From Paenalcaligenes suwonensis (lineage in GTDB: Bacteria > Pseudomonadota > Gammaproteobacteria > Burkholderiales > Burkholderiaceae_B), in assembly GCF_011290505.1 (NCBI RefSeq), contig NZ_JAANPV010000010.1:62001-126000 (forward strand): a stretch of DNA of 64,000 bases. The letters run 5' to 3'. Below the pieces are notes generated by a model. It did no database searches, was not told the origin of the DNA, and was given only the letters and a program-made list of their open reading frames with translations. The translations under genes and the position numbers were made by a program. Positions 4,660 to 21,090 of the stretch are shown piece by piece (positions within the stretch are counted from its first letter, which is position 1; the number at the start of each line of letters is the position of its first letter).

Positions 4660-5220
4660 TTAGGCAGGTTGTCCGGCAGACACCATCACCAGTGCGGGAC
4701 GCAATACGCGATCAGCCAACACATAGCCTTTCTGCAATGCCATGGCCACAGTGCCCTCAGCTTGATCAGAAGGTACGGTGGAAATCGCTTGATGCAGATG
4801 GGGGTCAAACTTGTCGCCCGCTTGTGGCGCTACTTCTTTCAACTGGTTGCGTGTAAACGCGTTATCCAACTGACGCAGCGTGGTTTCTATACCTTCGCGG
4901 AAGGCTTCAAGCGTTTGCTCTTCTTGAGCCAGTGCAGCTTCTAAACTATCACGCACGGGCAACAGGCTTTCGGCAAAAGATTCTGTACCGAATTTACGTG
5001 CCTTAGATACTTCCTCATCCGCTCGACGGCGAATGTTTTCCATTTCGGCTTTAGCGCGCAGCAACTGATCGTAATACTGGGCTACTTTAGCCTGAGCTTC
5101 TTCCAACTGCTGATCTAGTCCAGGTTCGACAAGCGACTCTGCTGCCACATCAATGGACTCGTTTTCAGGTTGGTTGTCTTCAGGAATCTGGTTTTCGTTC
5201 TGGTCTGTTGATGCAGACAT
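4660..5220 (-). CDS. grpE: Nucleotide exchange factor GrpE
   Basis: 186 residues. Acidic N-terminus rich in Asn/Gln/Glu, then a long helical coiled-coil stretch (around residues 35-100, with RAKAEMENIRRRADEEV), then the beta domain (KFDPHLHQAIS, VAMALQKGYVLADRVLRPALV) typical of GrpE. It releases ADP from DnaK. A sigma-32 promoter sits about 40 bases upstream of the ATG. Confidence 0.98.
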   Translation of the reverse strand: MSASTDQNENQIPEDNQPENESIDVAAESLVEPGLDQQLEEAQAKVAQYYDQLLRAKAEMENIRRRADEEVSKARKFGTESFAESLLPVRDSLEAALAQEEQTLEAFREGIETTLRQLDNAFTRNQLKEVAPQAGDKFDPHLHQAISTVPSDQAEGTVAMALQKGYVLADRVLRPALVMVSAGQPA

Positions 5221-13980: not shown

Positions 13981-15657
13981 ATGAGTGCAATCGTACTAGT
14001 AGTTATAGGCTTAGGCGCTATGTGTCTAGGCTATGTGTTTTACTCACGTTTTATTGCTGAAAAAATCTACAAATTAGACGATAACCGCCCCACTCCGGCC
14101 CATGAGTTTGAGGATGGTATAGACTTTGTGCCCACCAATAAATTTGTGTTATGGGGACACCACTTTACGTCTGTTGCTGGTGCAGCCCCCATTGTAGGCC
14201 CGGCCATCGCTGTGATTTGGGGATGGCTTCCCGCATTTCTTTGGGTCACCTTTGGGACAATCTTTTTTGCTGGCATACACGACTTCGGAGCCATTTGGGC
14301 CAGCATTCGCAACAAAGCCAAATCGGTAGGAGCACTTACTGGTGACGTAGTAGGAAAACGAGCACGCTCCATTTTCATGATCGTCATCTTCCTGGTGCTG
14401 CTCATGGTTAATGCAGTGTTCGGCGTAGTTATTGCCGGATTGCTGATTAATAACCCCGGTTCTGTTGTACCTGTTTGGGGAGCCATCGCGGTTGCCTTTG
14501 TCATTGGACAAGCCATTTATCGCTTTAAGCTGAATTTAGCTATCGTGTCGTTTATAGGCGTATGTGCTTTGTATTGGCTAATCTATATAGGCCCAAGCGT
14601 CCCCGTCACCTTACCCGAACAAGTCATGGGCTTAGGTCCTAGTGCAATATGGATATTACTGCTATTTGCCTATGCTGCCATTGCCTCCTTATTGCCTGTG
14701 TGGATGCTATTACAACCCAGAGACTACATAAACGGCCTACAGCTCTTTGTTGGCCTCGCCCTGCTCTATGTAGCCGTATTATTTAGCAATCCCACCATGG
14801 TTGCTCCGATGATCAACTCTGATGTACCTGCTGGTACGCCATCCTTAATCCCCCTCTTATTTGTCACTATCGCATGTGGCGCTATTTCAGGCTTCCACGG
14901 ACTAGTCTCATCCGGCACTACCTCCAAACAGCTAAACCGTGAACGTGATGGCCGTTTTGTGGGCTATTTCGGAGCTATAGGTGAAGGCGCTCTAGCTCTA
15001 GCGGCAATCGTCGCGGCATCTGCTGGTTTTGCTTCGCTAGCTGAGTGGAAAAGCATTTACCACTCTTTTGGTCAAGGCGGCGTCAATGCATTTGTTCAAG
15101 GTGGAGCAAACATTCTTCATGCAGGCATAGGCATTAGTCCTGAAATTTCAGCCACCATGCTCACGGTGATGGCTGCCTTATTTGCCGGCACGACGATGGA
15201 CACAGGCCTACGCCTACAACGCTATATTTTCCAAGAGTGGGGTGAGATCTATAACATCAAATGGATGGGTAAAGCCCTTCCTGCCACCTTCCTATCCGTT
15301 TTTACATGCTTGATTTTGGCTTTTGGTGCTGGCGGCGCCAGCGGTTCTGGTGGCTTAATTATCTGGCCCCTGTTTGGCACCACAAACCAATTACTGGCTG
15401 GGCTAACTCTACTGGTCATCGCCGTGATGCTAGTGCGACAAAAGTCTCCGTCCATCTACGTAACTGCCCCATTATCGTTTGTTCTTGTAATGACCTTAGC
15501 TGCACTATTAATCCAATTACGTGACTTCTACCTGAAAGAAAACTGGTTCTTATTTTCGCTGGATCTCATTGTGTTAATAGCGGCTATTCTCGTTACCCTA
15601 GAGTGTGTATCGGTGCTCCGCAAAGAGAAACGAGTAGCTGCCGCGACCCCTTCCTAA
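13981..15657 (+). CDS. cstA: CstA-family carrier (carbon starvation / pyruvate-peptide transporter)
   Basis: 558 residues from the ATG at 13981, which has a very strong AGGAGGAGG site 7 bases upstream; the frame 11 codons further up is unlikely. Many hydrophobic segments along the whole length (about 13-16), with the CstA signatures FGTIFFAGIHDFGA, GFHGLVSSGTTSKQ and GTTMDTGLRLQRY. E. coli CstA and BtsT are about 700 residues, so this is the shorter form. Family members import pyruvate or peptides at the inner membrane. Followed by a small Cys-Cys protein and an ArsA-like ATPase on the same strand, a linkage that suggests one functional unit. Confidence 0.92.
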   Translation: MSAIVLVVIGLGAMCLGYVFYSRFIAEKIYKLDDNRPTPAHEFEDGIDFVPTNKFVLWGHHFTSVAGAAPIVGPAIAVIWGWLPAFLWVTFGTIFFAGIHDFGAIWASIRNKAKSVGALTGDVVGKRARSIFMIVIFLVLLMVNAVFGVVIAGLLINNPGSVVPVWGAIAVAFVIGQAIYRFKLNLAIVSFIGVCALYWLIYIGPSVPVTLPEQVMGLGPSAIWILLLFAYAAIASLLPVWMLLQPRDYINGLQLFVGLALLYVAVLFSNPTMVAPMINSDVPAGTPSLIPLLFVTIACGAISGFHGLVSSGTTSKQLNRERDGRFVGYFGAIGEGALALAAIVAASAGFASLAEWKSIYHSFGQGGVNAFVQGGANILHAGIGISPEISATMLTVMAALFAGTTMDTGLRLQRYIFQEWGEIYNIKWMGKALPATFLSVFTCLILAFGAGGASGSGGLIIWPLFGTTNQLLAGLTLLVIAVMLVRQKSPSIYVTAPLSFVLVMTLAALLIQLRDFYLKENWFLFSLDLIVLIAAILVTLECVSVLRKEKRVAAATPS

Positions 15658-15672
15658 GTTCTACCTTCAACT

Positions 15673-15701
15673 TACAGCCCTGCTTTTACAGTGGGGCTGT
15701 A
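15673..15701 (+). other. Intercistronic hairpin after cstA
   Basis: TACAGCCC (15673-15680) and GGGCTGTA (15694-15701) can pair around a 13-base loop. No T run follows; the ribosome site of the next gene (AAAGGA) starts just after. It could protect the cstA mRNA end or set the ratio between carrier and small protein. Confidence 0.45.
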
Positions 15702-15713
15702 TAAAGGACAGCG

Positions 15714-15992
15714 ATGAAAGAATCCTTTACCCGCTTGACCCACTGGTGCAAACAAGCCAGCGCCTTGGGAGAAAGCTATTACAACGCCCCCTATCGTGCC
15801 GCCATTGCTCGCGCCAAACGCGAGGAGGAGGACCTATTTATGTTATTAGTATTTTCTGAAATGATGGGAGTACCCAACCCAGCATCATGGTACACGCTAG
15901 AGCTGCAGCCTTTACTATTACAGCGTTTTCACAGTTGGCATACCCGCATGGGGATGGAACGTTCCCCTCTTGATCATTTCCGCTGCTGCTGA
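15714..15992 (+). CDS. Small CstA-associated protein ending in Cys-Cys (cory-CC-star type)
   Basis: 92 residues, good ribosome site (AAAGGACAGCG). Soluble and partly charged; key stretches are ESYYNAPYRAAIARAKREEE, DLFMLLVFSEMMGVPNP, WYTLELQP and a C-terminus that ends FRCC directly before the stop. From memory this matches a small family named cory-CC-star for its terminal Cys-Cys-stop and seen beside CstA and ArsA/Get3-like ATPases; I cannot check that here. No signal peptide or membrane helix is evident. The terminal cysteines suggest metal binding, disulfide formation or a handle for the neighbouring ATPase. Function unknown. Confidence 0.82.
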   Translation: MKESFTRLTHWCKQASALGESYYNAPYRAAIARAKREEEDLFMLLVFSEMMGVPNPASWYTLELQPLLLQRFHSWHTRMGMERSPLDHFRCC

Positions 15993-16000
15993 GCCTACCT

Positions 16001-17026
16001 ATGCTAAATATTGACGAATTACTCACCACTCGCCGGCTGATTCTCTTGGGTGGTAAAGGCGGTGTAGGTAAAACGACCATGTCATCCGCATTAGCGGTGC
16101 TAGCCGCCACGGCTGAGCGTAACGTGCTGCTAGTATCTACTGACCCAGCCCACAGCTTAAGTGATGCCTTTGGTCGTCACATTGGTGATCACACCACCAT
16201 GCTAGCTCCTCAGCTATGGGCACTAGAAATAGATCCCGACAAAGAAGCCGATGCCTACTTAGAAAGGGTGTTGGCACAAATGCGGCGCTATGCCGGTCCC
16301 GATCAAATTCACGAATTACAGCGCCAACTGCAACTAAGCAGACAATCCCCAGGGGCACAAGAAGCCGCACTATTAGAAAGGCTAGCTAAAGTAATAGAAG
16401 AAGGCCTACAAAACTATGATACTGTCATCTTAGACACAGCCCCTACTGGCCACACACTGCGTTTACTCAGCCTGCCTGAAGTAATGGCTGCTTGGACTGA
16501 CGGGCTACTACGACACAACAAACGCTCACAACACTTAGCCTCTGTACTCCAGCATTTAACCCCATCACGTAGTATAGAGAGCTTAACCAGTGACCCCAGC
16601 CAACACCACAGCGCCGAATTCGACAGCAAAGATGCAGAGTTACTCAGCACATTGCTTCGTAGACAGCAGCTATTTAATCGTACGCGCAGGCGATTACATG
16701 ACAGCGAAACCACAGCATTCGTTTTTGTGTTAACCCCAGAACGATTACCTATTCTAGAAACAGAACGAGCCGTACAAGCTCTCACGTCACAAAACATTCC
16801 GGTGGCTGGATTGATAGTGAACCGTCTCCTACCAGCAATGGATGACAGTAACTTCTGGGCTCATAGACGCCAACAGCAAGAAAAGCATATGGTGGACTTA
16901 CATCAACGCCTACCTACGTTACCGCGCTGCCTCGTATCGCTACAAGAGGACGATATTGTTGGTGTAGACGCACTACAAGTGCTGGGTAAACACTTGACTA
17001 CTAACCCTGTAAATACGGCTGACTAA
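16001..17026 (+). CDS. ArsA/Get3-family ATPase linked to CstA
   Basis: 341 residues, a single ATPase unit. Deviant Walker A GGKGGVGKTT (residues 17-26, with the signature Lys 19), switch I DPAHSLSDAF (48-57), a PGAQE segment (117-121) like the adenosine-loop region of Get3, and switch II DTAPTGHTLRLL (145-156). This places it with ArsA, Get3/TRC40 and related dimeric ATPases. No arsenic genes are near. It starts 8 bases after the Cys-Cys protein, so the three genes are very probably one operon. It may energise or assemble the carrier, or handle the small protein's C-terminus; that is inference. Confidence 0.9.
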   Translation: MLNIDELLTTRRLILLGGKGGVGKTTMSSALAVLAATAERNVLLVSTDPAHSLSDAFGRHIGDHTTMLAPQLWALEIDPDKEADAYLERVLAQMRRYAGPDQIHELQRQLQLSRQSPGAQEAALLERLAKVIEEGLQNYDTVILDTAPTGHTLRLLSLPEVMAAWTDGLLRHNKRSQHLASVLQHLTPSRSIESLTSDPSQHHSAEFDSKDAELLSTLLRRQQLFNRTRRRLHDSETTAFVFVLTPERLPILETERAVQALTSQNIPVAGLIVNRLLPAMDDSNFWAHRRQQQEKHMVDLHQRLPTLPRCLVSLQEDDIVGVDALQVLGKHLTTNPVNTAD

Positions 17027-18131: not shown

Positions 18132-18332
18132 CAGTTCATACAAAGACGAGTGTGCCTACGCACATTCCACAACCAAGATACCGAGACAGAAATGACGCCC
18201 TCTTGCCTGCAAGTGGCGATACACCTTGCGGCATAAAGCGCGTTTACTTTCCTACCTCATTACCTAACAAGCCATTCTGAATCGGCGCCCATGATGGAGA
18301 CCGCCGAGTCAGCCCCGAAATCTGGAGATTCT

Positions 18333-19280
18333 ATGAGTACCAGCGTTGTTAAGCTTAAGTGCCTGTCGCACACCCCTTTGCGCGGTCTCAATGACCCTGC
18401 CCCTGGCGTAGTCGCCGAAGTCGATGCCGTCATCGCTGCAGCGCGTGCTGAAGTTGAAGCCTTTGATCCAGAACTTATTGTGGTCTTTGCACCCGACCAC
18501 TACAACGGGTTGTTTTACGACTTGATGCCCCCTTTTGTGGTTGCCACCGCAGCAGAATCTGTAGCTGACTACAAAACCCTGCCCGGCCCTCTGGCCATTC
18601 CTGACAAACTGGCGCTAGACCTAGTACGCCATCTACTAGACAGCGATCTGGATGTTGCTCTGTCTCACCGTTTGCAAGTGGATCACGGCTGCACCCAAAT
18701 TCTGGAAGAAATGACAGGCAGCCTGACGCGCTACCCGGTGATTCCTATCATTATCAACTCTGTAGCACCACCCTTTGCACCATACCGCCGCATTCGCCTG
18801 CTGGGTGAAGCCGTAGGTAAGTTCATTGCGGGGCTAAACAAACGCGTGCTGATTTTAGGATCGGGCGGTTTGTCGCACGAACCACCCGTGCCTGTGTTTT
18901 CAGGTGCAAAACCCGAAATCTCCGAGTTTTTAATCTCGGGGCGCAACCCTACCCCTGAAGCGCGTGCCGCACGCCAAGCTCGTACCTTAGCCACGGGCAA
19001 GATCTTCGGCACCCCTGACTGCGACCTCACTCCGCTTAATCAAGAATGGGATCACGCGTTCATGGACTTGCTGATCAACCAAGACTTACACAAGGTCGAT
19101 GACTTCGAAATTGACGTCATCTCTAAAACAGCGGGCCGCTCTACCCATGAAGTACGTACTTGGATTGCTGCCTTTGCCGCGTTATCAGCCATGGGCCAGT
19201 ACAACGGCCAAAAAGACTACTACCGCCCCGTGAATGAATGGATTGCTGGCTACGGTGTGATGAGTGCCGACCCGGCCTAA
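18333..19280 (+). CDS. mhpB: 2,3-dihydroxyphenylpropionate / 2,3-dihydroxycinnamate 1,2-dioxygenase
   Basis: 315 residues from the ATG at 18333 (site TCTGGAG); E. coli MhpB is 314. Class III extradiol ring-cleavage enzyme with Fe2+. Shared segments: CLSHTPLRGLNDP, FAPDHYNGLFYDLMPPF, LQVDHGCTQ, LILGSGGLSHEPPVP, GRSTHEVRTW and PVNEWIAGYG. It opens the ring of the catechol produced by an upstream hydroxylase (MhpA), which is not in this window. First gene of mhpB-D-C. Confidence 0.95.
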   Translation: MSTSVVKLKCLSHTPLRGLNDPAPGVVAEVDAVIAAARAEVEAFDPELIVVFAPDHYNGLFYDLMPPFVVATAAESVADYKTLPGPLAIPDKLALDLVRHLLDSDLDVALSHRLQVDHGCTQILEEMTGSLTRYPVIPIIINSVAPPFAPYRRIRLLGEAVGKFIAGLNKRVLILGSGGLSHEPPVPVFSGAKPEISEFLISGRNPTPEARAARQARTLATGKIFGTPDCDLTPLNQEWDHAFMDLLINQDLHKVDDFEIDVISKTAGRSTHEVRTWIAAFAALSAMGQYNGQKDYYRPVNEWIAGYGVMSADPA

Positions 19281-19335
19281 CACAGACCTGCCACGCCACC
19301 TCCTAACCGTCTCTAGTTATTAGGACTTTTGCGCT

Positions 19336-20136
19336 ATGACACAAGATACTCACACCTCACCGCTTAGTATTGCCGATGCCGCGCTGGCCCTACGTCGCGC
19401 CGCCGAGCAAGGTGAAGCCATTGCCGCCCTACGCGATCGCCTGCAACACGCCAATGCCGAAACGGCTTACGCCGTACAAGAAGCGAACACTCGCTTTGCT
19501 CTGGAACAAGGCCGTCGTTTAGTAGGCCGAAAAATTGGTCTTACTTCCTTAGCCGTACAAGCACAACTAGGCGTAGACCAGCCCGACTTCGGTATGCTCT
19601 TTGACGACATGCACATTGGTGACAACGCCTCTATTGCTGCAGGTCGCCTGATTCAACCCAAAGCAGAAGCCGAAATCGCATTAGTGATTGGGCGTGATCT
19701 GAACCACGAATTCCATAACTACGCTGATCTCATCAACGCCACTGAATACTGCTTACCCGCTATTGAAGTCGTAGACAGTCGCATTGCGAACTGGGACATA
19801 CGTTTTATAGACACCGTTGCTGACAACGCGTCCAGCGGTTTATTTGTACTGGGCAGCCAACCCGTGTTGCTGCGTGACCTAGACCTAACGGACTGCGCCA
19901 TGGAAATGGAATGCAATGGTGAAGTGGTTTCACGCGGTAATGGTAAAGCCTGCTTGGGTAATCCGCTCAACGCAGCGGTATGGCTCGCCAACACCATGGT
20001 GAAGTGCGGTCGCCCCTTACAAGCTGGCGATATCGTGCTGACTGGTGCCCTAGGCCCTATGGCTGTTGCTAAAAGCGGCCAACATTTCAACGTCAAGATT
20101 GCTGGCATGGGCCCTGTGTCCGTGCATTTCGACTAA
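19336..20136 (+). CDS. mhpD: 2-keto-4-pentenoate hydratase
   Basis: 266 residues (E. coli MhpD 269). Hydrates 2-hydroxypenta-2,4-dienoate to 4-hydroxy-2-oxovalerate. Contains [36 protein letters not shown] with metal-binding Glu residues, and the C-terminal [14 protein letters not shown] stretch. 55 bases after mhpB. The next two enzymes, MhpE and MhpF, are encoded about 40 kb away at 59.3-61.2 kb. Confidence 0.95.
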
Positions 20137-20217
20137 CTCTGTTGTGCAGGTGGCTAGCTGCCTGCTCCTCTCGCATTTCCCGGCGCTTACCGCACCGATC
20201 AATGACAAGGAATCATC

Positions 20218-21090
20218 ATGACCACAACCGTGCTACACACTGAAGCCAGCACCAGCCGCTTCGCCCATATCAAAGAGCAAGACCTAGACCTACAAATTCA
20301 CTACAACGACACAGGCGGCAACGGCCCTGTTGTGGTGATGATCCACGGCTCAGGCCCTGGTGCTAGTGGTTGGGCCAACTTCAACCGTAACGTGCAGCCT
20401 TTGTACGATGCAGGCTTCAGAGTTATTTTGATGGACTGCCCCGGTTGGAGCAAAAGTGATCCTATCGTTTGTACAGGTTCACGCTCTGACTTGAACGGCC
20501 GTGCTCTGAAAGGCTTGTTGGATGTACTGAACATCGAGCGTGCGCACATCATTGGTAACTCCATGGGCGGCCACAGCACCGTTGCTTTCTCGCTGGCCAA
20601 CCCAGAGCGCATCGGCAAAATCGTTTTAATGGGCGGCGGCACCGGTGGCCCTAGCCAGTTTGTGCCTATGCCTGCTGAAGGCATCAAACTGCTGCAAGCA
20701 CTGTACCGCGAGCCTACGATTGAGAACCTGCGTCGCATGATGCAAGTGTTTGTGTTCGACACCAAAAACCTTACTGAAGAGCTATTCCAAGCCCGTTTGG
20801 ACAACATGCTGTCCCGCCGTGAGCACTTGGACAACTTCGTGAAAAGTCTGGAAGCTAACCCACGTCAGTTCCCTGACTTCGGGCCACGCTTGGGTGAGAT
20901 CAAAGCACCTGCACTGATTATCTGGGGCCGTGACGACCGCTTTGTACCCATGGATATTGGTCTGCGTCTGCTGTGGGGCATGGCCGATGCTGAGTTCCAT
21001 ATTTTCAGTCGTTGTGGTCACTGGGCACAATGGGAGCATGCCGATAAGTTCAACAACATGGTGATTGAATTTTTCAGTAGAAGAGACTAA
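20218..21090 (+). CDS. mhpC: 2-hydroxy-6-oxonona-2,4-diene-1,9-dioate hydrolase
   Basis: 290 residues (E. coli MhpC 288). Alpha/beta-hydrolase cleaving the C-C bond of the ring-fission product. Oxyanion region [10 protein letters not shown], nucleophile elbow GNSMGGHS, Asp in WGRDDRFVP and His in [10 protein letters not shown] complete a Ser-Asp-His triad. 81 bases after mhpD, preceded by AAGGAAT. Last gene of the unit, followed by a strong terminator. Confidence 0.95.

Follow-up and report, generated by a model that had tools for sequence, protein, structure and literature searches.

Soluble ATPases of the ArsA/Get3 class turn over slowly and commonly act as nucleotide-dependent switches; Get3 has a CxxC zinc site at its dimer interface, and ArsB with ArsA is a precedent for true ATP energising of a carrier that tolerates loss of the ATPase. 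That such an ATPase can also accompany a CstA-family carrier was described by Castillo & Saier in 2010, who found an arsA homologue together with cstA in 26 cases, 24 of them also with a small gene that they named cstX, and arsenic genes in none. The trees largely agreed, and they proposed CstX as the coupling element between CstA and the ATPase, through which transport would be energised (PMC2963123). Both the trio and its shared function had thus been predicted there and are not new; among the literature searched, theirs is the only paper in which 'CstX' is found together with 'CstA', and a term search of its main text returns neither YbdD nor DUF466. YbdD (DUF466) is the small protein known from beside E. 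coli CstA: pyruvate uptake by E. coli K-12 is given as falling to 13% on loss of cstA and to 20% on loss of ybdD, the cstA ybdD double mutant showed no significant difference from the singles and no additive effect, and its authors concluded that CstA and YbdD form a single complex, while allowing for indirect effects and leaving binding untested there (PMC5847655). A 2020 paper that treats CstA as a pyruvate transporter of E. coli leaves YbdD unmentioned (term search). DUF466 proteins of some Campylobacterales end in selenocysteine after a Cys and have been argued to be redox-active (PMC4607533), and the selenocysteine form goes by the name KCU-star (PMC13188914, PMC9312934).

Here we followed up a locus in a 64,000-nucleotide stretch of Paenalcaligenes suwonensis DNA (the window), where cstA (13981..15657), a cory-CC-star gene (15714..15992) and an ATPase gene (16001..17026) form a tight unit, all on the + strand, with 56 bases between the first two and 8 bases between the cory-CC-star stop codon and the ATPase ATG. 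The carrier is a short-type CstA of 558 aa (PF02554, 460 bits against a gathering score of 27), the small protein of 92 aa belongs to NCBIfam NF041419 (133.4 bits, cut-off 80) and ends FRCC-stop, and the single-domain, ArsA/Get3-type ATPase of 341 aa falls into the GET3/arsA/TRC40 superfamily (TIGR00345, 258 bits, cut-off 135; PF02374 matched too) with the motifs GKGGVGKT, STDPAH and DTAPTGHTLR. Coordinates and sequences thus agree with what the initial annotation had seen, namely three same-strand genes, the last two 8 bases apart, a Cys-Cys-stop and full ATPase motifs; likewise, no arsenic genes were recognised when the ORFs between 9000 and 22000 were inspected by eye and four downstream ORFs compared with Pfam, as it had stated. 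With cstA, a gene for ~90 aa and a single-domain arsA together and no ars genes in sight, the locus is of the CstA-CstX-ArsA operon type, with which it shares the three-gene content, the ~90-aa small protein, the single-domain ~330-aa ATPase and the absence of arsenic genes (PMC2963123). Judging by size and place rather than by that paper's sequences, cory-CC-star is probably CstX, and the statement in the initial annotation that the small family had been noticed beside the other two was right (PMC2963123; NF041419). The two descriptions differ in that CstX was presented as a single-TMS protein, whereas cory-CC-star has no TM-like stretch on the crude scale used here (see below); the name 'cory-CC-star' itself was not found in the literature searched.

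Association of the three genes is far above chance. Among at least 591 pattern-matched stretches, at least 541 encode relatives, and the best 80 of these (identity at least 64%, hence leaning to close kin) have cstA in the same contig in 78 cases, the ATPase in all 80 and the Cys-Cys end in 79. L012 is truncated by its contig, and an 84% cstA sits at the edge of another contig of that genome; L057 lacks cstA in 2.86 kb upstream, its genome carrying one (69%) on a separate contig. L018 has both small gene and ATPase broken between frames, and split genes also occur in L031 (ATPase), L036 (cstA) and L056 (both). Adding three plasmid records, five and six loci from two genome surveys, one 'phage' record and the window gives 96 loci, 95 of which keep the Cys-Cys end and one of which (L175) lacks the ATPase. 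For a quantitative view we surveyed the window's phylum (Pseudomonadota) in one draw of 299 genomes, the window's own included: cory-CC-star occurs in 6, CstA in 156 (16 of these with a best E weaker than 1e-40) and YbdD/PF04328 in 51. At E 1e-10 or better the window's ATPase finds 18 of the 299 genomes, and the full-length relatives among them (6, E 4.2e-64 or better) all adjoin the small gene; the other 12 are partial matches (E 8.2e-30 or worse), ten in frames of 579-918 aa, as in two-domain ArsA, with two short pieces in G184 and a 337-aa frame (E 3.5e-15) off the CstA contig in G114. This is the kind of survey by which the initial annotation wished its idea to be judged, and it does not refute the idea and favours a functional unit, as all six small genes adjoin cstA and all six full-length ATPases are found with it. 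A second draw of 369 genomes of the class contained 11 with a closely related CstA (E at most 1e-120), with the small gene in 8 and the ATPase in 7 of these 8; G015, G412 and G522, whose CstA is 60, 42 and 43% identical, have neither partner nearby. Viral copies were not found in two scans, and the sole match among phage records (MT836486, flagged UNVERIFIED) is a bacterial-looking contig with the full cstA-cory-ATPase set.

Our analysis adds to the described trio a parallel between cory-CC-star and YbdD, including the selenocysteine forms of the latter: cory-CC-star fills the slot that YbdD/DUF466 holds beside another CstA branch, a link for which we found no precedent in the literature searched. 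YbdD (PF04328; KCU-star, NF033934) was located in 54 places in the draw of 299 genomes, 51 of which begin less than 0.5 kb from the end of the CstA profile match (a distance that includes part of CstA's own tail); of the exceptions, two lie on a different contig from the genome's CstA and one genome (G125) shows no CstA. Both systems have a small gene 3' of cstA, a terminal Cys pair, conserved His and a GxP[D/N] motif. Among 30 YbdD proteins, 28 end CC and two CPC, 19 carry GxP[D/N]Y, and 11 aligned sequences share one invariant His and a second His at 90% or more. They differ in that CstA of the YbdD type is longer (652-670 aa once cut back to where the window's CstA begins) and that the small proteins show no significant sequence similarity. 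Nor do we know of an ATPase partner for CstA-YbdD. As for homology, profile-profile comparison returned 0.7% and 2.3% probability (P 0.02), 5 of 100 column shuffles scored as well, no cross-matches were seen, and three cory proteins (the window's included) gave no YbdD/PF04328 match in Pfam at E up to 10. What makes cory-CC-star look as if it works like YbdD is thus its gene just 3' of cstA and its terminal Cys pair, not family membership. YbdD is absent from all 75 genomes of cory loci considered (75 of the best 80; L012, L022, L057, L077 and L078 left out), which are related (many Halomonas, Billgrantia, Idiomarina) and so do not count as 75 independent cases. Of the six survey genomes with cory-CC-star, one has both small genes, namely the window's own, where the cstA next to ybdD is split between two frames and the YbdD matches KCU-star (under the model cut-off) and Sel_put.

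Taken together, we tentatively prefer a reading in which CstA works with a thiol-tailed accessory subunit, which the ATPase switches in a nucleotide-dependent way. Cory-CC-star would dock on the cytoplasmic face of CstA, whose activity would need it, by analogy with what is reported of YbdD for E. coli CstA; the terminal Cys pair, perhaps with H73 and H76, would be its reactive or metal-binding tip, and the ATPase would bind cory-CC-star and, depending on the nucleotide, load it onto CstA or free it. Uptake might thereby follow the ATP level, with no energy payment per substrate molecule. We favour this because the trio is adjacent and co-occurring, because separate CstA branches each have their own small gene with a Cys-pair end, because YbdD occurs in none of the 75 cory genomes, and because E. 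coli ybdD loss cuts pyruvate uptake (PMC5847655) and selenocysteine forms of DUF466 are argued to be redox-active (PMC4607533). Further support comes from the invariant His/Cys set of cory-CC-star, from CstA relatives that lack both partners or the ATPase (see below), and from ATPase distances, which track small-protein distances at fixed CstA distance: across 75 loci, where median pairwise identity is 0.74 for CstA, 0.70 for the small protein and 0.55 for the ATPase, the partial distance correlations (shared ancestry uncorrected) are 0.58 for ATPase and small protein, 0.50 for CstA and ATPase and 0.28 for CstA and small protein. That the last value is the lowest of the three weakens our preference, as it is not what is predicted for a subunit held mainly by CstA. 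The same holds for the equivalence of cory-CC-star and YbdD, which rests on slot and tail, not homology, for the 101 of 156 CstA genomes that have neither small protein, for the 2020 E. coli study that omits YbdD and the indirect effects allowed for by the 2018 authors, and for the fact that we found no interaction, structure or phenotype for this CstA clade in the literature searched. The view in the initial annotation that CstA carriers are self-sufficient is itself weakened, since E. coli CstA is reported to need YbdD (PMC5847655), yet neither small protein is seen in those 101 genomes.

By family, CstA here is likeliest an organic-acid importer with pyruvate as its likeliest substrate; we assume uptake of pyruvate or peptides from E. 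coli (PMC5847655), Desulfovibrio (PMC10102598) and Salmonella (PMC9504724), and PDB held no sequence match for it at E up to 1. Whether its transport is energised by ATP hydrolysis coupled via the small protein, as ArsA is held to do for ArsB, was the question raised by Castillo & Saier, and to our minds this is unlikely, even though the proposal was published from 26 operons and matching trees (PMC2963123) and is in line with the trio's adjacency and the complete ATPase motifs here. A CstA relative, BtsT, is described as pyruvate/H+ symporter (PMC7730263), and CstA of the same clade occurs without the ATPase. When 130 CstA sequences were thinned to 65 by applying an 85% rule inside each partner class and a midpoint-rooted tree was built, the 19 labelled as YbdD-associated form one clade with support 100 (18 in effect, as L119 has no YbdD match alongside), and 34 from cory-CC-star loci, the window's included, fall into a clade of 35, also with support 100, whose remaining member (L130, genome G015) is partner-less. 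L130 and two further partner-less sequences (L131 of G276, L178 of G288) are 59-60% identical to the window's CstA; their genomes give no cory match and, with the ATPase as query, short ParA/MinD-like matches only. The simplest reading is that this lineage may have lost both partners, which depends on where a single Bacillota sequence (L003) is placed. L175 (genome G458) has CstA and the small protein without an ATPase (tblastn; 2.0 kb downstream to the contig end), with short ParA-like matches and one 62-position PF02374 fragment (E 9e-5, another contig) elsewhere in that genome. A CstA ~60% identical to the window's with neither partner in three genomes, and CstA with the small protein but no ATPase in one, argue against the ATPase being indispensable for energising or assembly; of the idea in the initial annotation that the partners assemble, gate or energise CstA, it is the CstA-centred unit that holds. 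Slow turnover of this ATPase class also sits badly with energising, and energising as in ArsB/ArsA tolerates ATPase loss, which takes some force from the partner-less CstA in support of our preferred switch. ArsA and the ATPase here belong to one superfamily, and both are soluble ATPases encoded alongside a carrier; ArsA differs in having two ATPase domains and a Cys triad, as opposed to one domain, no conserved Cys and an unrelated carrier. An identity as arsenical pump ATPase was rejected on these features (one domain of 341 aa, no conserved Cys) and on its score (154 bits, ArsA cut-off 650). Partner-less loci yielded no credible third small partner (CC-ended ORFs in 12 loci, L121-L132; other ORFs in 8), and interface residues could not be read from the partner-less lineage, in which all three members depart from 16 of the 220 columns conserved in CstA, mostly by mild changes.

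A role in thiol or metal maturation, with the small protein carrying a metal or a redox disulfide at His/His/Cys-Cys that the ATPase loads or resets, we also consider doubtful. It is attractive in that H73, H76, C91 and C92 belong to the residues invariant in 92 distinct cory proteins (the broken L018 excluded), together with G52, P56, E63, L64, P66, F72, W75, R78, G80 and P85, with P54 and N55 of the GxP[D/N] motif each kept in 90 of the 92; YbdD has its own conserved His (11 aligned) and CC/CPC ends (30 proteins), and DUF466 its selenocysteine forms (PMC4607533). The proposal of C-terminal Cys as a metal site therefore gains some support from two invariant His and two invariant Cys. That these four residues converge, on the other hand, is seen in no structure, and the small family has no sequence match in PDB at E up to 10. 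Furthermore, the ATPase lacks a conserved Cys or CxxC, unlike metal-handling relatives: in 91 ATPases (the first alignment, in which a length filter removed 4 of 88 loci, plus 6 added later), GKGGxGK[T/S], STDPAH and DTAP are each kept throughout, CxxC occurs in none and 46 have no Cys at all, and no column exceeds 20% Cys across 85 aligned sequences. This rules out Cys as metal ligands of the ATPase, so that thiol or metal chemistry, if any, would sit in the small protein.

A Get3-like chaperone role, in which the ATPase carries CstA or its small partner to the membrane, is very unlikely: although the solved structures that match the ATPase best by sequence are those of algal ArsA1 and a pair of archaeal ArsA/Get3-type ATPases, followed by two-domain ArsA and Get3, none of the 92 small proteins has a 19-residue segment above 1.6 (Kyte-Doolittle; maximum 1.48) that could serve as tail anchor, the CxxC of Get3 is absent and related CstA genes persist without the ATPase. 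A membrane tail of Get3 type thereby gains no support, and the lack of the CxxC zinc site (0 of 91) speaks against an identity as Get3 tail-anchor targeting ATPase. Get3/TRC40 and mycobacterial BagA/BagB resemble the ATPase in fold family and motifs and differ in that we see no CxxC and no tail-anchored partner and find the gene linked to CstA. On the whole, what the initial annotation observed is confirmed and its interpretation partly supported.

Returning to the preferred switch on a thiol-tailed subunit, an extended version, which we think improbable as a whole, would have CstA come under the control of small subunits twice in evolution, the two kinds being unrelated but each ending in a pair of thiols (with a selenol in some YbdD), and a Get3-type ATPase govern the subunit here, which would make a proton-driven importer ATP-gated. 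If true, such a carrier would be a type of its own, distinct from both plain symporters and ABC pumps, and gating by the ATPase would give its family a job beyond arsenic export, gas vesicles and tail-anchor delivery. Two small families in which we detected no similarity, but which occupy one slot, end in a Cys pair and rarely share a genome, suggest that these carriers have a need in common.

The 56 bases that separate cstA from the small gene contain a 12-bp RNA stem-loop (15673..15701, + strand); folding of 15650-15720 gives -22 kcal/mol (z -2.66), a stability matched by 1 of 200 shuffles, and no T run follows 3' of the stem-loop, which could shield the cstA mRNA end or tune expression ratios. 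Conservation around the unit is low, the commonest family besides the trio occurring in 18 of 80 loci (representative: a PAS/exonuclease protein). In the window, two tRNA-Gly genes lie upstream, and the downstream genes encode LigB, FAA-hydrolase and alpha/beta-hydrolase domains of the kind found in aromatic meta-cleavage.

At three loci (L130, L131 and L178), which come from three genomes of a single genus, CstA is about 60% identical to that of the window, and both partners, the gene for the small Cys-Cys-ending cory protein and the ATPase gene, are missing. Their absence is probably due to natural loss, which could help in finding what the partners touch. In a further genome (G458; L175, 1994-4513), CstA and cory-CC-star are there and the ATPase is missing, while a genome of the same genus (G562) has all three. 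A CstA relative lies on a haloarchaeal plasmid (L152, 2863-4710), and comparing a 7.4-kb stretch of the plasmid with the window's proteins gave neither a cory nor an ATPase match.

The full cstA-cory-ATPase set is carried by a record that GenBank titles Bacteriophage sp. (UNVERIFIED) (L157, MT836486.1); further genes in it are also bacterial in look, and we regard the record as probably host DNA. In Cytobacillus (L003), cstA and the cory gene are separated by an additional 95-aa gene (4687-4974) without any Pfam match, and a Natronospirillum MAG (L039, 4852-9667) has an extra cstA directly 3' of the trio, giving the order cstA-cory-ATPase-cstA.

The window's own genome holds a second, long-type cstA with ybdD immediately 3' (contig C5; L133, 2391-4611). 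This copy is broken across two reading frames, reflecting either gene decay or a draft-sequence error. YbdD proteins of two other loci (L113, L115) end in Cys-Pro-Cys rather than Cys-Cys, so the spacing of the terminal Cys pair can vary. Within the window, consecutive genes for a LigB-type dioxygenase, an FAA-hydrolase-family protein and an alpha/beta hydrolase (18291-21090) look like an aromatic meta-cleavage (mhp-like) cluster.
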